Source: Pelagibacterales bacterium SAG-MED48
GTDB lineage: Bacteria > Pseudomonadota > Alphaproteobacteria > Pelagibacterales > Pelagibacteraceae
NCBI GenBank assembly: GCA_014653375.1
Contig: JACWEP010000010.1
Location: 1-35,151 of the forward strand
Direction of reading: 5' to 3'
DNA length: 35,151 nucleotides
This document shows, piece by piece, positions 14,487-23,893 of the stretch (position 1 is its first letter; each line of letters begins with the position of its first letter). The notes below the pieces were generated by a model. The model searched no databases. It was not told the origin of the DNA and was given only the letters and a program-made list of their open reading frames with translations. Made by a program: the position numbers and the translations under genes.

Positions 14487-16031
14487 TTGATAAAAAGAAA
14501 ATACATTGAGATAATTTTTTTAATTATTTTAGGTGCAGTCTCATCTTTAAGTTTGCCTCCATATAATTACTTAATAATAAATTTTTTTACCTTTAGTGCA
14601 TTTTTTATATTTCTATTTAAAAAATCTAAAATTACCCAAAGTAAAAAATATTTCTTTTTTTATGGCTGGCTATTTGGATTTGGTTATTTTTTGTCAAGCT
14701 TGTATTGGATATCAATATCTTTAACTTTTGATCAAAATTTTAAATTTTTAATTCCTATATCTATAATTTTAATGCCTTCTTTTCTGGGAATTTTTTATGG
14801 ATTAGTTACCTTCTGTTTTATAATTTCAAAATCTAAAAAAATAGTAAGTTCTTTTCTGGTTTTTTCATTATTTTTTGGTGTTTTTGAATTTATAAGAGGT
14901 TCAATTTTAACTGGTTTTCCTTGGAATTTGATAGCCTATAGTTTTGTTAATCATTTAGAAATATTAAGTATTACCTCATTAATAGGAACCTACGGATTTA
15001 ATTTATTCTGTATTTCATTGTTTGCTAGTCCTGCAATTTTTATATTAAGAGAAACAAGAAAAGACATAGGTGTGTGTGTTATTTTTCTAATTTTGCCATT
15101 ACTGTTTTATCTGTATGGATCATCCTATAAAGAAACATTTAATTCATCAGATGTTACAAACTATGATTATAATGTAAGAGTAATAGGTTCAAATATTAGT
15201 CTCGATAGATTTTATTTAAACATTGATCCTGTCTTAGTGATAAATGAATTGATTGAAATAAGTGAGCCAGAAAAAGATGATAAGACTATATTTATTTGGC
15301 CTGAAGGAATTCTCCCCGATGTTTCTCAAGAAGAATTAATCGAATTTAAGTGGTTATTTGAAGATACTTTTAGTAAAAATCATTTGTTATTAATTGGGAT
15401 CAATAGTCAAAAAGCCAATAAAGAAAAAATTAATTATTTTAATTCCTTATCAATTTATAGTCATGATTTAGAAATATTAGATTTTTATAATAAAATCAAT
15501 CTAGTCCCGTTTGGTGAATTTTTACCTTTTGAAAATATTTTGAAAAAATTTGGTTTAAGTACAATTACTAATAATTATCAATCATTTTCAAAGGGCCAAG
15601 ATAGAAAGATTATCGAGATAAAAAGAGATGATTTTTCCTTAAAGATATTGCCATTGATTTGTTATGAAATAATATATTCAGGTAAAATATTTCAAAATCA
15701 AAGCTTTGATTTAATGGTTAATATTTCTGAGGATGGATGGTTTGGTAGATCAATAGGACCTAAACAGCATTTTGCACATAGTATATTTAGATCAGTTGAA
15801 AGTGGTAAATATTTATTGCGCTCAGCAAATAATGGTACTTCAGCTATTGTTAATCCTTTGGGTATTGTTGAGCAAAAAGTTGAATATGGTGATTCAGGTT
15901 ATATTGACTTTAAAAAAGCTAAAAAAATACAACCAACATTATTTTCTAAATATGGAAACAAAATCTTTATAACATTAATTTTACTATATATTTTTATGAT
16001 ATTTTCATTTAATAGACTTAAAAATGAGTAA
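14487..16031 (+). CDS. lnt: Apolipoprotein N-acyltransferase Lnt
   Basis: Inner-membrane enzyme that adds the third acyl chain to lipoproteins such as DolP. The 514-residue protein has about six N-terminal transmembrane segments (to about residue 210), a periplasmic nitrilase-type domain (about 225-480) with the triad E273 (WPEGILPD), K336 ([12 protein letters not shown]) and C392 (LICYEI), and a C-terminal transmembrane helix. The start appears to be TTG at 14487, giving basic MIKRKY before the first helix. It is one base from the ybeY stop and overlaps metK by 8 bp. Identification is secure; the TTG start is the only uncertain point. Confidence 0.95.
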
Positions 16032-17193
16032 TTTAAAAAACTTCCTTTTTACAAGTGAGTCAGTATCTGAAGGTCATCCGGATAAAGTTTCAGATAGAAT
16101 TTCAGATATGGTAGTAGATAATTATCTATCTGGAGATCCATTCTCAAGAGTTGCATGTGAAACACTTACAACAACAAATAAAGTAGTTTTAGCAGGAGAA
16201 GTTAGGGGCCCTGAAATAAAAAAAAACGAATTAATTGAAAAAGTTAGAAATTGCATAAAAGATATTGGCTATGATCAAGAAGGTTTTACTTGGAGAGAAG
16301 CAACAAAAATAGAAAGCCATCTTCATTCCCAATCTACTGATATTGCAATGGGTGTAGACTCATCTGGAAATAAAGATGAGGGAGCTGGAGATCAAGGTAT
16401 TATGTTTGGATATGCTTGCAACGAAACAGATGTTTTAATGCCAGCGCCAATTCACTACTCTCATAAAATTTTAAGATTAATGGCAGAAGATAGAAAGTTA
16501 GGAAAGTTAAAAAATATAGAACCAGATAGTAAGAGCCAAGTTACTTTTGAATATGTGGATGGAAAACCTACGAAAGTAAAATCTGTAGTAATATCTTCTC
16601 AGCACTCTGCAGATGTTAATCAAGCACAAGTAAGGGATTTATTGAGACCTTACATGTTACAATCTATTCCATCAAATTTTCTTGAAGGTTTTAATGAAGA
16701 TGAGTTTTATGTTAATCCAACAGGTAATTTTGTTATTGGTGGTCCAGATGGAGATTGTGGGTTAACAGGAAGAAAAATTATAGTAGATACATATGGCGGT
16801 GCCGCACCTCACGGTGGGGGAGCTTTTTCTGGAAAAGATCCTACAAAAGTAGATAGATCTGCAGCTTATGCAGCAAGATATATCGCAAAAAATGTTGTTG
16901 CTTCAAAAATTGCAGACAAGTGTTTAATTCAATTAGCTTATGCAATTGGTGTTTCTAAACCATTATCAATTTATGTTGATTTATTTGATAATGATTTGGA
17001 TAAAAATAAATTTGTTGTAGATAAAATAAATGAAAATTTTGACTTAAGTCCTCGAGGAATTAGAGAGATGCTAAATTTAAATAAACCTATTTATGAAAAA
17101 ACATCTGCTTATGGGCACTTCGGAAGAGTTCCTGAAGAAGATGGTTCATTTTCTTGGGAAAAAACAGATAAAACAGCCTTTTTTTCCAAATAG
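16024..17193 (+). CDS. metK: S-adenosylmethionine synthetase
   Basis: Makes S-adenosylmethionine from methionine and ATP; SAM is used by RsmI, MiaB and UbiE encoded in this window. The 389-residue protein carries EGHPDK (16-21), [12 protein letters not shown] (120-131) and the P-loop-like GGGAFSGKD (264-272). The ATG at 16024 lies within the last 8 bp of lnt, leaving no room for a leader, so no SAM riboswitch precedes it. In the usual order trmB and rimP follow metK; here a 98-bp gap with a promoter and hairpin leads directly into nusA. Confidence 0.97.
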
Positions 17194-17199
17194 TTTCTG

Positions 17200-17227
17200 T
17201 TGAATTAAAAAAAAACTTTACTATATT
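17200..17227 (+). promoter_or_regulatory. Putative promoter of the nusA operon
   Basis: TTGAAT (17200-17205) and TATATT (17222-17227) are separated by 16 bp, a sigma-70-like arrangement immediately after the metK stop. Initiation would be near 17234, giving a leader of only about 20 nt before the hairpin at 17251. In such AT-rich DNA promoter-like pairs arise by chance, so support comes mainly from position. Confidence 0.45.
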
Positions 17228-17250
17228 GCATTTACATTATTGAATTTACA

Positions 17251-17276
17251 AAGTGGGCTTAAGCCCATTTTTTTTT
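17251..17276 (+). terminator. Terminator-like hairpin (probable attenuator) in the nusA leader
   Basis: A perfect 14-base palindrome TGGGCTTAAGCCCA (17254-17267) forms a GC-rich 5-bp stem with a TTAA loop, extendable by A-U and G-U pairs at 17251-17253/17268-17270. It is followed by nine T's (17268-17276). The ribosome-binding GGAG (17277-17280) follows at once and the nusA ATG is at 17292. A terminator this close to the start of a transcription-termination factor gene suggests attenuation rather than plain termination; E. coli also has terminators ahead of its rimP-nusA operon. Confidence 0.75.
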
Positions 17277-17291
17277 GGAGCAAACAAAAAC

Positions 17292-18845
17292 ATGTTAAAC
17301 AAGAGAGCAGATAAATTAGAATTACTTAGAATTGCTGAAGCTGTTGCTTTAGAAAAATCTATCGATAAAGAACTAATCATTAGTTCAATGGAAACTGGAA
17401 TTGCAAAAGCAGCAAAATCTAAATTTGGTCAAGAAAATGAAATTAAAGTTTCTATTAATAGAGATAGTGGAGATATTGAAATATTTAGAAAACTAGTTGT
17501 TGCAGAAAATCCTGAGAATTCAAATACAGAAATTAAATTAGAGGATGCTATTACTTTAAATGAAATAAATAGAGATAAGGCTGTTGGAGATGAAGTTTTA
17601 CAACCACTTCCTTCATTTGATTTTGGTAGAATAGCTGCTCAAACAGCAAAACAAGTAATCAGTTTTAATGTCAGAGAAGCTGAAAGAGAAAGACAATTTA
17701 ATGATTTTATTGATAAAAAAGATTCAATTTTAAGTGGAATTGTAAAACGATTAGAATTTGGAAATGTAATTGCAGATCTTGGAAGAACAGAAGCAATTAT
17801 TCAAAAAAATGAGATGATCCCTAGAGAAAATATTAAAGCGGGTGATAGAATAAAAGCTTATTGTTATGATGTTAGAAGAGAGCCAAGAGGGCAACAAATA
17901 TTTTTATCAAGAGCTCACCCAAAGTTTATGGAGAAACTTTTTGTTCAAGAAGTTCCTGAAATTTATGATGGTTTAATTGAAATTAAATCTTCTTCAAGAG
18001 ATCCTGGAAGTAGAGCAAAAATTTGTGTAAAAGCTGTCGATACATCACTTGATCCAGTTGGGGCTTGTGTTGGTATGAGAGGCTCAAGAGTTCAAGCAGT
18101 TGTTAATGAATTGCAAGGAGAAAAAATTGACATTGTAAATTGGTCTGAAGATCCTGCGATTTTAGTTTCAAATGCTCTTTCACCTGCAGAAGTCCAAAGA
18201 GTGAATGTGGATATAGAAAGAAAAAAACTTGATGTAATTCTTACTGAAGAAAATTTAAGTAAAGCTATTGGAAGAAGAGGTCAAAACGTTAGACTTGCCA
18301 CAAAGTTATTAAATTATGAAATTAATATAATGACCGATGCAGAAGATTCTGAGAGAAGACAATTAGAATTTAAAGAAAAAACTGAAAATTTTGTTAAAAA
18401 TTTAGAGTTAGACGAAACTTTGGGACAGCTATTAGTTGCTGAAGGTTTTTCATCAATAGATGATATTAAAGATAGTTCAGCTGAAAATTTAATGAAGATA
18501 GAAGGTATAGAAGAGGATACTGCTAAAGCACTTATAGAAAGAGCTAAAGAGTTCCATCAAAAAGATCAAGAAGATATTTCTGAGAGAATAAAAGAATTAG
18601 GCCTTGAAGACTTACTAATTAATTTAAAAGGATTAACTCCAGGAATGTTAGTAACTCTAGGAGAACAAAAAATTTTAACACTAGAAGATTTTGCTGACTT
18701 AGCATCTGATGAGCTAACAGGTGGATATGATATTGTAAAAGGTGAAAGAGTTAAAATCCAAGGTTATCTTGAAGATTTTGCTTTATCAAAAGAAGAAGCA
18801 GATGAACTAATTATGTCTGCAAGAAACATTGTCTACAAAGATTGA
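17292..18845 (+). CDS. nusA: Transcription termination/antitermination factor NusA
   Basis: RNA-polymerase-associated factor controlling pausing, intrinsic termination and antitermination. The 517 residues contain the N-terminal RNAP-binding domain (1 to about 125), an S1 domain (about 135-200), two KH domains (about 228-345; GxxG loops GMRGS and GRRGQ) and C-terminal helix-hairpin-helix acidic repeats (about 365-510). I chose the ATG at 17292 (MLNKRADKLELLRIAEAVA), the family start with GGAG 11 bp upstream; a longer in-frame reading from 17253 would translate the hairpin and has no family counterpart. Neither rimP nor ylxR flanks it. infB follows after 10 bp. Confidence 0.96.
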   Translation: MLNKRADKLELLRIAEAVALEKSIDKELIISSMETGIAKAAKSKFGQENEIKVSINRDSGDIEIFRKLVVAENPENSNTEIKLEDAITLNEINRDKAVGDEVLQPLPSFDFGRIAAQTAKQVISFNVREAERERQFNDFIDKKDSILSGIVKRLEFGNVIADLGRTEAIIQKNEMIPRENIKAGDRIKAYCYDVRREPRGQQIFLSRAHPKFMEKLFVQEVPEIYDGLIEIKSSSRDPGSRAKICVKAVDTSLDPVGACVGMRGSRVQAVVNELQGEKIDIVNWSEDPAILVSNALSPAEVQRVNVDIERKKLDVILTEENLSKAIGRRGQNVRLATKLLNYEINIMTDAEDSERRQLEFKEKTENFVKNLELDETLGQLLVAEGFSSIDDIKDSSAENLMKIEGIEEDTAKALIERAKEFHQKDQEDISERIKELGLEDLLINLKGLTPGMLVTLGEQKILTLEDFADLASDELTGGYDIVKGERVKIQGYLEDFALSKEEADELIMSARNIVYKD

Positions 18846-18855
18846 GTGATGAGCT

Positions 18856-21075
18856 ATGGAAAAAAAAACAAAACTAACAATAACTGGCATAGCCAAAAAA
18901 TCGATCAAAAATATTGAGATTGCAAAAACTCAAGGAAAAAATTCTGTAGTTATCGAAAAACAATCAAATAAATTTCCAAGTCGAGGTGGATTAGTTAAGC
19001 CAGGAGGCTTTAAGCCCAAAACTATCTCAACATTTAATAGAGGTGCACCAATTAAACCATCGTTTCCATCTAAATCACCCCCTATAACAAATGATTTTGA
19101 AAAACGTAAGCTGGCTGAACAAAGAGCCACTAAAAGACTTAAAGGTGAAAATGATAATAAAGATAAGAAAACTTTAAAAGCAGGCACAAAAAAAAGAGAA
19201 TTAAAATTAACAGTTTCAAGAGCTTTAAGTGATGAAATAGAAGCTAGAGCAAGAAGTGAAGCTTCTGTAAAGAGAGCAAGACAAAAAGAGAATAAAAATT
19301 TAACAAAAGAAGAAGTTCAAGAAAGCCTTAAACCGGTTAAAAGAGATATTAATATTCCAGAAGCAATTACAGTTAGAGAACTAGCTAACAGAATGGCTGA
19401 GCAATCTAGTAATGTTATTAAATATCTATTTGGAATGGGCGTTACTGTTACTATAAACCAGACGTTAGCAGCAGATACAGCTGAGTTTCTAGTTAAAGAA
19501 TTTGGTCATAATCCAATTAGAGGAGAAAAAGCTGAAGAGATTATTCAAAAAATCAAAGCTTCCAGAGCAGAGAATTTAAAAAACAGAGCTCCCATAGTTA
19601 CTGTTATGGGACATGTTGATCATGGTAAAACTTCAGTGCTTGATGTTTTGAGAAGTGCAAATGTTGTATCAGGAGAATTTGGAGGAATTACGCAACATAT
19701 AGGAGCATACCAAATTGAAAGCCAATCTAATAAATTAACTTTTATTGATACACCGGGTCACGCAGCATTTACTGAAATGAGAGCAAGAGGATCAAAGTTA
19801 ACTGATGTGGTTGTATTAGTGGTTGCTGCAGATGATGGAGTAAAGCCTCAAACAGTAGAGTCCATTAAACATGCAAAAGCTGCCAATGTACCAATTGTTG
19901 TTGCAATTAATAAGTGTGATTTACCAGATGCAGACCCACAAAAAATAAAAAATCAATTATTAGAGCATGAACTAATAGCAGAAGATTTATCAGGAGACAC
20001 ATTGATGGTTGAAATTTCTGCTACAACAAAATTAAATTTAGACAAATTAGTTGAAGCGATAATTTTACAAGCAGAAATATTAGACTTAAAAACCGATTTT
20101 GAATCTAAAGCGACAGGGATTGTGCTTGAGTCTAAAATTGATGTTGGAAGAGGACCGGTTGCAACGATTATAGTGACTACAGGAACTTTAAAAAAAGGTG
20201 ATTATTTTGTTAGTGGTTTAAGATGGGGTAAAGTTAGAGCGATTATTAACGATAAAGGAAAAAATATTAATGAAGCACCTCCATCAACCCCAGTTGAGAT
20301 TTTAGGAATAAATGGTGCATCAAAAGCAGGAGATGATTTCATCGTTCTTGATAATGAAAAAGAAGCAAAAACACTAAGTGAAAATAGAGCGCAAGAAAGC
20401 AAAGATGGAAGAAACCCTTTAACTTTTGCATCTCAAGACTCTGCATTTTCAGATAAATCTACAGAAGAACTAAATTTGATTATTAAATCTGATGTTCATG
20501 GATCTTCTGAAGCAATTAAAAATGCAATTAGCCAAATTAAACATGATGAGGTTAAACCTAAAATAATTTTATCAGATATTGGAATGGTAACTGAAACAGA
20601 TGTTACATTAGCAAAAGCTTCAAATGCAGTTTTAATTGCGTTCAATGTTAAGCCAAGTAAAGAAGCAAAAAAACTTGCAGAAAATGAAAAAATTAAAATT
20701 TCCTCTTACAACATCATTTATGAAGTTCTTGATTTTGTAAAACAAAAAATGTCAGGATTGTTATCTCCTGATATTCAAGAAACAGTTATAGGTACAGCTC
20801 AAATATTAGAAATATTTAAAGTATCCGGTGCCGGTAAAGTTGCGGGCTCAAAAGTAATGGATGGAGAAATCACTACTGCCTCAGATGTTAGAATTATCAG
20901 AGATGGAGCGATCATTTATACTGGCAAAGTTGGAACCCTGTTTAGAGAAAAAAATCAGGTAAAACAGGTCAGCAACGGGCAAGAGTGTGGAATTACAGTA
21001 AAAGATTACATGGATTTCCAAAAAAATGACACAATAGAGGCCTTTAGTGTAACATCTACTGATAGAATGATTTAA
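18856..21075 (+). CDS. infB: Translation initiation factor IF-2
   Basis: GTPase that brings fMet-tRNA to the 30S subunit and promotes subunit joining. The 739-residue protein has a basic, low-complexity N-terminal region (1 to about 165), a short IF2-N domain (about 167-220) and the GTPase domain with G1 GHVDHGKTS (252-260), DTPGH (298-302) and NKCD (352-355), then the beta-barrel and C-terminal fMet-binding domains. The N-terminal region is shorter than in most alphaproteobacteria, in line with genome reduction. It is 10 bp after nusA; the usual ylxR gene between them is missing. Its TAA overlaps the rbfA ATG by one base (TAATG). Confidence 0.97.
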   Translation: MEKKTKLTITGIAKKSIKNIEIAKTQGKNSVVIEKQSNKFPSRGGLVKPGGFKPKTISTFNRGAPIKPSFPSKSPPITNDFEKRKLAEQRATKRLKGENDNKDKKTLKAGTKKRELKLTVSRALSDEIEARARSEASVKRARQKENKNLTKEEVQESLKPVKRDINIPEAITVRELANRMAEQSSNVIKYLFGMGVTVTINQTLAADTAEFLVKEFGHNPIRGEKAEEIIQKIKASRAENLKNRAPIVTVMGHVDHGKTSVLDVLRSANVVSGEFGGITQHIGAYQIESQSNKLTFIDTPGHAAFTEMRARGSKLTDVVVLVVAADDGVKPQTVESIKHAKAANVPIVVAINKCDLPDADPQKIKNQLLEHELIAEDLSGDTLMVEISATTKLNLDKLVEAIILQAEILDLKTDFESKATGIVLESKIDVGRGPVATIIVTTGTLKKGDYFVSGLRWGKVRAIINDKGKNINEAPPSTPVEILGINGASKAGDDFIVLDNEKEAKTLSENRAQESKDGRNPLTFASQDSAFSDKSTEELNLIIKSDVHGSSEAIKNAISQIKHDEVKPKIILSDIGMVTETDVTLAKASNAVLIAFNVKPSKEAKKLAENEKIKISSYNIIYEVLDFVKQKMSGLLSPDIQETVIGTAQILEIFKVSGAGKVAGSKVMDGEITTASDVRIIRDGAIIYTGKVGTLFREKNQVKQVSNGQECGITVKDYMDFQKNDTIEAFSVTSTDRMI

Positions 21076-21443
21076 TGACAGATAGAATTGGAAAACCAAT
21101 ATCACAAAGACAGCTTAGAGTAGGAGAAATGATCAAGCAGTCTTTAAGCATGATTTTTTTAAAAAATGAGGCTAAGGTCCCCAATTTAGAAACTAACAGT
21201 ATAACGGTCACCGAGGTGAGAATGAGTCAAGACTTAAAAATAGCTAAAGCATATGTGCTTCCACTTGGAGGTAAAAATGCAGAAGAAACTATTAATGTTT
21301 TAAAAAAATATTCATTCTTAATAAGAAAAATTTTATCACAGAAGGTGGTTATGAAATTTTTACCAAAATTACTTTTTAGAAAAGACGAATCTTTTGAGTA
21401 TGCGGAAAAAATAGAAAACTTAATAAAACAAACAAATAAATAG
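21075..21443 (+). CDS. rbfA: 30S ribosome-binding factor RbfA
   Basis: Small KH-fold assembly factor that binds the 30S subunit and supports 16S rRNA 5'-end maturation. The 122-residue sequence begins with the typical SQRQLRVGEMIKQSLSMIFL helix and contains VTEVRMSQDLKIAKAYVLPLGG, the conserved core strand of the family. It is coupled to infB by TAATG. In most alphaproteobacteria truB (tRNA pseudouridine-55 synthase) follows rbfA; here only 12 bp separate it from rpsO, so truB is not in this operon. Confidence 0.93.
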   Translation: MTDRIGKPISQRQLRVGEMIKQSLSMIFLKNEAKVPNLETNSITVTEVRMSQDLKIAKAYVLPLGGKNAEETINVLKKYSFLIRKILSQKVVMKFLPKLLFRKDESFEYAEKIENLIKQTNK

Positions 21444-21455
21444 GAAAAAGAAGGC

Positions 21456-21704
21456 ATGAACAAAAAGGCACAAGAATTAGCAATGCATGATAAAGATACT
21501 GGATCTTCAGAGGTTCAGATTGCTTTGTTAACAGAGAAAATTGAAACTCTCTCTATACATATAAAACAATTTAAAAAAGATAAACATTCATCTGTAGGAT
21601 TGTTGAGAGCGGTAAATAGAAGAAAAAAATTGTTAGAATACCTAAAGAACTCAAAAATGGATTCTTACAAAAATGTACTGTCGAAATTGGGTTTAAGAAA
21701 ATAA
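21456..21704 (+). CDS. rpsO: Ribosomal protein S15
   Basis: Primary 16S rRNA-binding protein of the 30S platform. The signature DTGSSEVQIALLTEKI (14-29), HSSVGLLRAVNRRKKLLEYL (44-63) and YKNVLSKLGLRK C-terminus are unmistakable. At 82 residues it is about seven shorter than E. coli S15, all at the N-terminus. No alternative upstream start exists, because the same frame reaches the rbfA stop TAG (21441-21443) four codons earlier. A purine-rich AGGAAAAAGAAGG just before the ATG is a good ribosome-binding site. pnp follows after a 62-bp repetitive spacer. Confidence 0.97.
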   Translation: MNKKAQELAMHDKDTGSSEVQIALLTEKIETLSIHIKQFKKDKHSSVGLLRAVNRRKKLLEYLKNSKMDSYKNVLSKLGLRK

Positions 21705-21710
21705 AGATCA

Positions 21711-21769
21711 AGATAGATAGAATAGAATAGAATGGAACGAATCGAACGAAACGAAATGGAAATGAAATG
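21711..21769 (+). repeat. Degenerate pentanucleotide tandem repeat in the pnp leader
   Basis: Almost the whole rpsO-pnp spacer consists of imperfect 5-base units: GATAG-type, then GAATA, GAATA, GAATG, GAACG, AATCG, AACGA, AACGA, AATGG, AAATG, AAATG. It is purine-rich with a pyrimidine roughly every fifth base, and has little capacity for base pairing. It runs into the pnp start codon (21767). In E. coli this interval forms an RNase III-processed hairpin used for PNPase autoregulation; nothing like that hairpin is visible here. Confidence 0.8.
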
Positions 21770-21794
21770 TTTAAAGTACACAAGAAAGAAATAG
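21732..21794 (+). CDS. Possible 20-codon upstream ORF overlapping the pnp start
   Basis: Within the pentanucleotide repeat an ATG at 21732 opens a 20-codon frame (with further in-frame ATGs at 21756 and 21762) ending at TAG 21792-21794. It is out of frame with pnp and overlaps its first nine codons. The peptide would be very charged (starts [12 protein letters not shown]). It could be a by-product of the repeat; a role as a translational regulator of pnp is speculative. Confidence 0.2.
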
Positions 21795-23839
21795 AAGTAG
21801 CAGGAAAGAAAATAAGTTTAGAGACAGGTAAAGTAGCAAGACAAGCAGACGGAGCAATCATCGCTTCATGTGGTGAAACAATTGTTTTAGCAACAGTGGT
21901 AGGGGCAAAGAAAGTTAATCCAGATATGGACTACTTTCCGTTATCAGTAAACTACCAAGAAAAATATTATGCAGGTGGGAAAATTCCAGGTGGATTTTTT
22001 AAGAGAGAAGCAAGACCAACTGAAAGTGAACAATTGATCTCAAGATTAATTGATAGACCTATCAGACCTTTGTTTCCTGGTGAATTTAAAAATGAGGTTC
22101 AGTTATTACCAACAGTAATTTCATATGATAAAGAAAATCAACCAGATATTTTAGCTATTACTGCATCATCAGCAGCATTAGCTATTTCAGGTATGCCATT
22201 TATGGGTCCTGTAGGAGCATCTAGAGTAGGTTATGTTGATGGTAAGTACATTCTTAACCCATCAAAAGCTGAATTAGAAAACTCTTCTTTAGATTTAGTT
22301 GTAGCAGGTACTAAAGATGCTGTGCTAATGGTTGAGTCTGAGACATCAGGTTTAACAGAAGAAGTAATGTTAGATGCTGTTAAATTTGGTCATGAAGGCT
22401 TTGTCCCAGTAATCGAAATGATTGAGGAACTAGCTAAAGAATGTAGAAAGCCAGAATGGACAGTTGAGAAAAAAGATTTATCTGAAGTTAAGCAAAAACT
22501 TGAGAGTGAATTTACTGAAGATTTAACTAAAGCTTTTGCAACAATAGATAAACAAGATAGATCAAATCAAATTTCAGAAATATCTGGAAAAGCTAAGCAG
22601 CTTTTTGCTGATAATGAAAATTACTCTGATTTTAATGTTAATGATGAGTTAAAAAATCTTGAAAAGAAAATTGTCAGAACTGATATTCTTAAAAACAAAA
22701 AAAGAATTGATGGCAGAGGTTTAGCTGATGTAAGAGCTATCGAGTGTGAAGTTGGTGTTTTACCAAGAACTCATGGTTCAGCATTATTTACTAGAGGGGA
22801 AACACAAGCGATTGTAGTTACTACTTTAGGTACTTCTGATGATGAACAAAGAATAGAAAGTCTAGATGGACAGTCTAGAGAAAGATTTATGCTTCATTAC
22901 AACTTTCCTCCTTTTTCAGTTGGTGAAACTGGAAGAATTGGAACTGGAAGACGTGAAGTTGGTCATGGAAAATTAGCATGGAGAGCAATTAACTCGTCAC
23001 TTCCTTCAAAAGAGGCGTTTCCATACACTTTTAGAATAGTATCAGAGATTACAGAATCTAATGGTTCTTCTTCAATGGCTTCTGTTTGTGGTGCATCTCT
23101 TGCGCTAATGGATGCAGGTGTTCCAATTAAAGAACCAGTTGCAGGTATTGCAATGGGTTTAATTAAAGAAGGTGATGATTTTAGTGTTCTATCAGATATT
23201 TTAGGTGATGAAGATCACTTAGGAGATATGGACTTTAAAGTTGCTGGAACTAAAGATGGAATTACTTCACTTCAAATGGATATCAAAATTACTGGTATTA
23301 CTTTTGAAATCATGGAGCAGGCTTTAAAGCAGGCTAAAGATGGAAGAGTTCATATTTTAGGTGAAATGAATAAAGCTTTAAGTGAATCAAGAGCTGATGT
23401 TGGACAACACACTCCAAAAATGGAGCAGATTACAGTTGATAAAAAAGATATCGCTGCTGTAATTGGTAAAGGTGGTGCAACAATCAGAGAGATTGTTGAA
23501 AAATCAGGTGCAAAAGTTGATGTGAATGATGAAGGGGTTGTAACAGTTGCTGCTCCAGATGAAGAGTCTAGAAACATCGCCATGCAGTTTATTAAAGACA
23601 TCACTGCAAAAGCTGAGCTGAATAAAATTTATTCAGGTAAAGTTATGAAGATTATGGAGTTTGGTGCTTTTGTTAACTTCTTAGGTAAACAAGATGGCCT
23701 TGTTCACATTTCAGAACTTGCTCCTAAAAGAGTAGAAAAAGTTACTGATGTTGTAAAAGAAGGTGACGAAGTAAAAGTTAAAGTGATTGGTTTTGACAGA
23801 GGTAAAGTTAAACTTTCCATGAAACAAGCTGCTGAATAA
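21767..23839 (+). CDS. pnp: Polyribonucleotide nucleotidyltransferase (PNPase)
   Basis: Phosphorolytic 3'-5' exoribonuclease central to mRNA turnover. The 690 residues comprise RNase PH domain 1 (about 10-140), an all-helical linker, RNase PH domain 2 (about 320-450), a KH domain (about 550-610, with GxxG loop GKGGA) and a C-terminal S1 domain (about 615-687). Conserved stretches such as [25 protein letters not shown] appear in positions typical of the family. The ATG at 21767 gives the canonical N-terminus ([20 protein letters not shown]) and emerges from the repetitive leader. It ends the nusA-pnp run, with a strong terminator 20 bp downstream. Confidence 0.97.
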
Positions 23840-23858: not shown

Positions 23859-23893
23859 AAACCCCCGAGATGAAAGTTTTGGGGGTTTTTTTT
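23859..23893 (+). terminator. Rho-independent terminator after pnp
   Basis: AAACCCCC (23859-23866) pairs with GGGGGTTT (23881-23888), extendable inward through G-U and A-U pairs to a small loop, and the T-run continues to 23893 (eight T's from 23886). This is the most GC-rich hairpin in the window. It lies between convergent pnp and fabI; in the fabI direction the T-tract is poor (AGAATTTT), so it probably acts mainly on pnp transcripts. Confidence 0.9.

Follow-up and report, generated by a model that had tools for sequence, protein, structure and literature searches.

The nusA gene in the analysed DNA of a Pelagibacterales bacterium (35,151 nucleotides, hereafter referred to as the window) is closely preceded by a GC-rich hairpin and a run of nine T's. 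We consider it likely, with a probability of roughly 70%, that this element is an attenuator of the rimP-leader type which was kept on nusA after the loss of rimP, and that NusA itself is the best candidate effector. The window belongs to an assembly of 1.07 Mb in 67 contigs, and its NusA shares up to 97% identity with records titled Pelagibacteraceae, which we take to be SAR11 bacteria of the order Pelagibacterales. Judged from sequence conservation, the element is a true and deeply conserved attenuator-like structure, that is, a rimP-less variant of a published family. The NusA circuit proposed in the preliminary description of this DNA is plausible but unproven; that description did not mention that the motif has been known since 2010 under the name of rimP-leader, nor that NusA feedback was already proposed for it (PMC2965389) and, for nusA of B. 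subtilis, has been reported in a review (PMC12288461).

Anatomy of the nusA leader

The order of the genes in this region, as assigned by Pfam, is phoH, ybeY, lnt, metK, nusA, infB, rbfA, rpsO, and pnp; the promoter-like hexamers, the leader, the hairpin with its T-run, the GGAG, metK, and nusA with infB, rbfA, rpsO, and pnp are on the plus strand. The upstream neighbour metK (positions 16024-17193; TIGR01034, 478.5 bits) ends with a TAG codon (17191-17193) just 5' of the -35-like hexamer TTGAAT (17200-17205) of a putative nusA promoter, the TTGA of which has a conserved spacing. The -10-like hexamer TATATT (17222-17227) follows after a 16-nt spacer; similar hexamers are located at a similar distance in several genera, with poor fits in genus g12 and in some others. 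In the window, 22 nt of A/T-rich sequence separate TATATT from the hairpin, and the untranslated leader from the putative transcription start to the GGGC (17234-17254) is short. This region (17231-17254 in the window) and its counterparts in the relatives contain leader words between promoter and stem that are conserved genus by genus, such as ACATTRTTGA in much of the window's genus and AAGTTACCTGGA in g2 and g3.

The candidate terminator hairpin, recognized from its sequence, fold, and conservation, is AAAGTGGGC-TTAA-GCCCATTTT (17250-17271). Its core consists of GGGC (17255-17258), the loop TTAA (17259-17262), and GCCC (17263-17266), followed by an A (17267) and by the U-tract of exactly nine T's (17268-17276). 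As a whole, TGGGC-TTAA-GCCCA with its nine T's occupies 17250-17276, between the promoter-like site and the GGAG and ATG of nusA. The GGAG (17277-17280), likely the Shine-Dalgarno sequence, lies directly 3' of the T-run, and nusA (17292-18845; TIGR01953, 385.8 bits; Pfam NusA_N and KH_5) starts with the ATG at 17292. Judging from their spacing, infB, rbfA, rpsO, and pnp (18856-23839; Pfam) are presumably co-transcribed with it. A long hairpin with a T-run, AAACCCCCGAGATGAAAGTTTTGGGGGTTT, is present 3' of pnp (23859-23888).

The element had been described as a perfect GC-rich palindrome with nine T's before nusA. It is real, and in the window its core, TGGGCTTAAGCCCA, is perfectly palindromic, but the lower stem contains one G-T pair, so that the whole stem (17250-17271) is not quite perfect. 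A palindromic core may also bring to mind a DNA operator bound by a repressor, a reading to which we assign a practically negligible probability. Indeed, the element lacks symmetry, being flanked by a short A-tract at one end and by T9 at the other, and the G-U pairs at several stem positions suit RNA rather than DNA symmetry; tolerance of G-U pairs, asymmetry, and a terminal T9 are more in keeping with an intrinsic terminator than with an operator bound by a protein.

Hairpin and T-run together fold at -10.9 kcal/mol, a value reached by none of 200 shuffled sequences, and the longer 67-nt stretch 17234-17300 gives a modest z of -2.15, with seven of 200 shuffles equally good. A scan of 19 kb retrieved 14 terminator-like sites, the nusA hairpin among them, against 7.5 ± 3.1 in shuffled sequences, and a promoter scan was uninformative in such A/T-rich DNA (95 found, 91.7 expected); because of these two results, shape alone is weak evidence. 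The case for the element is carried by its conservation (125 of 125 loci, and 48 of 48 named ones).

Two other readings of this region were rejected. All Rfam matches in the window stayed below the cut-offs of their families, which speaks against a riboswitch or another known leader (the highest weak match was Bp1_162, on the minus strand, with 22.1 bits against a cut-off of 50; L20_leader had 20.8 against 58.7). A longer NusA starting from the GTG at 17253 and running through the hairpin has an open frame in the window, but this start is not conserved, since the open frames of the full-length matches listed differ in length (511-557 aa).

Conservation of the element and its association with nusA

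The 125 Pelagibacterales loci, window included, comprise 105 loci of 12 genera in the window's family and 20 loci of three genera in a second family; they derive from loci L001-L129, after removal of three without a nusA start and of L060, a second fragment of the L057 genome. A NusA match was retrieved in 176 of the 197 family genomes. The upstream stretches are those of the 105 family loci and of 20 of the 44 second-family genomes with a NusA match; second-family NusA is mostly 52-57% identical to that of the window. The hairpin and the T-run are present upstream of nusA in all 125 loci, and the T-run counts exactly nine T's in 124 of them and ten in the remaining one. Similarly, all of the 48 named loci, which are partly from the same genomes or contigs as the larger set and include one (L233) titled only 'Alphaproteobacteria bacterium', harbor the hairpin and T-run, with nine T's in 47. 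These counts are not independent, since the sequences are related. A loss of the hairpin beside conserved flanking genes, which the preliminary description had named as refuting its claim, was searched for in the 125 loci and not encountered.

The loop sequence varies among the loci, and the distance from the end of the T-run to the start codon ranges from 9 to 26 nt. GGG and CCC are found in 125 of 125 loci; the closing pair is C-G throughout the window's family (105 of 105 loci) and mostly T-G or T-A in the second one. The count of nine T's also holds in loci with a T in place of the A after CCC, and in those with a G-C pair like that of the second family. The idea that T9 is simply a homopolymer ceiling is not supported: in 400 kb of a related genome, the A/T runs of 8, 9, 10, and 11 bases are 389, 151, 39, and 6, respectively, their number falling steadily. 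Nine-base A/T runs are also frequent 5' of the stem in g1 (32 of 49 loci; longest run there, 3-9 bases), which cautions against over-reading T9.

One further possibility, which we regard as quite unlikely, is that the hairpin and U9 act on the nusA mRNA, influencing its translation or stability as a 5' hairpin or through S1 or Hfq-like binding. The T-run does abut the Shine-Dalgarno sequence in the window. However, a Shine-Dalgarno-like motif is found in 39 of the 49 g1 loci and in none of the 16 loci of g7, g9, and g12, so a translational role is unlikely to be the constant one of the hairpin; both this motif and its spacing vary between genera, whereas the hairpin and T9 hardly do. Furthermore, an uninterrupted U-tract behind a hairpin is what characterizes an intrinsic terminator.

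As far as the stem is concerned, Watson-Crick pairs are kept in 110-121 of the 125 loci at the first five positions outward from the core, with further G-U pairs. Since the GGGC core is invariant in the window's family, the support for pairing by compensatory change comes down to one pair: counting outward from GGG/CCC in the 125 loci, one position is occupied by A-U, or by G-U as in the window itself, in almost the whole of the window's family, and 19 of the 20 second-family loci have G-C there, this being the sole double change between the two families. Pair counting on a MAFFT alignment of 52 loci revealed no pair with a double change, because the second family is shifted by one column there. 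All six g12 loci and two other family loci have a mismatch (T-T or C-T) at the pair adjoining the core, and a stem of this kind (L052) folds at about -8 kcal/mol; one second-family mismatch at this position may be an artefact of register.

In the scanned genomes, the motif hardly occurs away from nusA. The pattern GGGCNNNNGCCCN{0,2}T7 matched next to nusA, at one site per genome, in 49 of the 60 family genomes; seven of the 11 genomes without it have no NusA match, three have NusA without its start, and one (G033) has a weak NusA match. The reversed pattern, used as a control, gave no match in the 60 genomes, and the form of the second family, GTGGGN5CCCRCT9, has a single occurrence, at nusA, in each of the 20 genomes scanned. 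Since the patterns were drawn up after reading the leaders, mostly of these same genomes, the scans are a test of uniqueness and not of presence. The sole further match in the 60 family genomes is one extra site in G027. This only second occurrence of the GGGCNNNNGCCC+T motif, at G027:C2:224536-224556, has the sequence GGGCGAAAGCCCCCTTTTTTT.

The gene lying upstream changes within the order: it is metK in representatives of g1, g2, g3, g4, and g10, and a TrmB-like gene in those of g5, g7, g9, g12, and the second family (two of these TrmB-like proteins score over the TIGR00091 cut-off). In the named loci covering both ends, the gap between metK and nusA is 94-120 nt in most cases and 698-842 nt in four. 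In the latter representatives, the trmB-like gene is situated between metK and the leader, whereas the window has no such gene at this place (17193-17292). The hairpin precedes nusA whichever of the two genes adjoins it, in agreement with the proposal that it is an attenuator-like terminator of the nusA leader and not the terminator of metK.

The -35-like TTGA is located 44-66 nt 5' of the GGG of the stem in 119 of the 125 loci, against 1071 of 6250 random upstream anchors (17%). This, together with the 9-26 nt left between T-run and start codon, suggests that nusA transcripts probably have to pass the hairpin from a putative start 5' of it. The alternative, in which genome compaction would have pushed a plain terminator of the preceding operon (metK or trmB) against nusA, is to be weighed against a promoter-like site that precedes the hairpin and against the persistence of the hairpin with nusA despite the change in the upstream gene. 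It is also at odds with the far end of the operon, where a hairpin detector (a different test from that used at nusA) found a terminator 3' of pnp in only nine of the 44 named loci covering that end, with T-runs of 4-9. Tight packing is in itself not odd: in a related 400-kb sample (genome G003, 404 ORF models), three of the nine strong terminator-like sites outside same-strand ORFs are no more than 40 nt from the next start, so closeness to a start codon alone is not telling. Altogether, we give this alternative very little credence. Three further strong terminator-like hairpins of G003 (L180:14992, L179:10220, and L187:7108, plus strand), which lie 10-28 nt before the next ORF start, could be further attenuators or the mere result of tight packing.

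Searches for rimP and probable retention of the leader

The preliminary description had stated that rimP, which in E. coli follows the terminators, is absent here, and the domain searches agree. RimP_N was not retrieved in any of 197 family genomes or 147 order genomes (overlapping draws), nor was the C-terminal domain of RimP in 97 genomes; across the alphaproteobacteria as a class, RimP_N was found in 158 of 190 genomes. In the rimP-bearing alphaproteobacteria, the same motif is located 65-160 nt 5' of the RimP_N match in 16 of 30 loci (the best 30 of the 158 RimP_N-bearing genomes) under a strict pattern, and looser hairpins before RimP_N are also visible by eye. Moreover, of 32 other named alphaproteobacterial loci, most of them Rhizobiales by title, 17 have the motif 740-970 nt 5' of nusA, which is where rimP would be expected to begin (rimP itself was not located there); the remaining 1.01 Mb of strand sequence of these 32 loci contain four matches as background. 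On sequence grounds, the simplest reading would be that rimP was lost from between the leader and nusA and that the leader was kept.

Retention of the leader without rimP is not a rule, since nine of the 13 rimP-less alphaproteobacterial nusA loci outside the order show no such hairpin, either by pattern or by eye; two others have the canonical hairpin and two (L165 and L171) a variant. These loci derive from 18 listed rimP-less genomes outside the family, 13 of which have a NusA_N match; 12 further rimP-less genomes were left out. The two loci with the canonical hairpin, L164 (G297) and L166 (G304), have GGG..CCC and nine T's about 50 nt 5' of the NusA_N match and possibly represent independent losses of rimP.

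Proposed mechanism and comparison with known systems

An antiterminator was searched for in the leaders and none was found: without the 3' arm of the hairpin, they fold about as well as shuffled sequences. The g1 leaders gave -3.55 against -3.24 kcal/mol, with 44% of the shuffles as good, and those of the second family -3.26 against -2.74 kcal/mol, slightly better than shuffles; g4 was equal, g2, g3, and g12 were worse, and the single loci of g6 and g11 slightly better (one g9 leader containing N was left out). The CATT..AATG and TTG..CAA pairings in g1 were also considered as antiterminators and rejected, as their folds are not clearly better than those of shuffles.

We therefore depict the following scenario. 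RNA polymerase would start about 16-20 nt 5' of the stem, the GGGC/GCCC hairpin would form, and the polymerase would pause in the U9 tract; either an RNA of about 40 nt would be released, or transcription would read through into nusA-infB-rbfA-rpsO-pnp. Since no antiterminator was found, the choice between the two outcomes would most likely be set by a protein of the elongation complex. NusA, when abundant, may stimulate termination and in this way hold its own level.

The failure to find an antiterminator is also compatible with a constitutive attenuator, which would set a fixed read-through ratio, or damp the read-through from metK or trmB, without any feedback specific to NusA. Across the scanned genomes, however, the motif is almost confined to nusA and hardly varies, and a generic valve would need neither property. 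The published record also points to NusA: a 2025 review reports that B. subtilis NusA is autoregulated by NusA-stimulated termination in its own 5' leader (PMC12288461), and PMC2965389 cites evidence that NusA represses the E. coli operon. We regard a constitutive attenuator as rather improbable, although it is the alternative that we take most seriously.

Feedback by NusA is the preferred reading. The persistence of the leader on nusA after the probable loss of rimP argues against RimP as a needed target or effector and favours NusA feedback. If rimP is truly absent, RimP can be neither effector nor target in this order, and this is where the present analysis chiefly goes beyond the 2010 paper. 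We tentatively suggest, with somewhat less than even confidence, that SAR11 represents a natural rimP deletion isolating the true client of the leader, that the hairpin and U9 form a minimal NusA thermostat without antiterminator or leader peptide, and that the number of nine U's is selected. The nine U's might match the RNA-DNA hybrid, at a tipping point where NusA would decide between release and read-through. With its strict U9, this element of about 27 nt of DNA lends itself to simple tests of how NusA might control its own amount.

Mondal 2016 is reportedly the primary paper on the autoregulation of B. subtilis nusA. By analogy, the logic proposed for SAR11 is like that reported for B. 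subtilis, namely intrinsic termination stimulated by NusA in its own 5' leader (PMC12288461); the B. subtilis attenuator sits in the leader of rimP (ylxS), according to PMC2965389. No paper on the SAR11 nusA leader was among the matches listed in the open-access literature, and the main text of a paper on SAR11 structured RNAs contains no word beginning with 'nus' (PMC2704228).

In E. coli K-12 (NC_000913.3), the metY-rimP-nusA leader has two terminator-like hairpins before rimP, as had been stated for this species. The second one, GGGCTTTAGGCCCTTTTTTT, lies just 5' of rimP and is close to the SAR11 element; unlike SAR11, K-12 has an additional upstream hairpin, AGCCCCGATTTATCGGGGTTTTTT, preceded by the tRNA gene metY, and rimP is present. 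The Rfam family RF01770 (rimP; a gammaproteobacterial model of 102 positions) is named for the same operon leader, and the window scored against it 17.4 bits (E 1.2), under the gathering cut-off of 47.

The closest known system is the rimP-leader of Naville and Gautheret (2010), which the paper describes as the most ubiquitous transcription attenuator: a terminator of the form GGGc...gCCC with a U-stretch before rimP-nusA-infB, 4-130 nt from the gene start, with no visible antiterminator, undetected by its authors in other terminators, and with NusA as the best candidate effector and RimP as the alternative (PMC2965389). The SAR11 element shares with it the stem, the U-stretch, the lack of a visible antiterminator, the position at nusA-infB, and the specificity for this operon, and its distance of 9-26 nt from the nusA start falls within the published range. 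It occupies the same place with the first gene missing, nusA and infB being present and rimP not found. The second family and many rimP-bearing relatives have the GTGGG..CCC(A/G)C form, the G-C pair of which is replaced by A-U or G-U in the window's family. Unlike the rimP-leader, the SAR11 element is located directly on nusA, and its T-run counts nine in nearly all the loci of the order.
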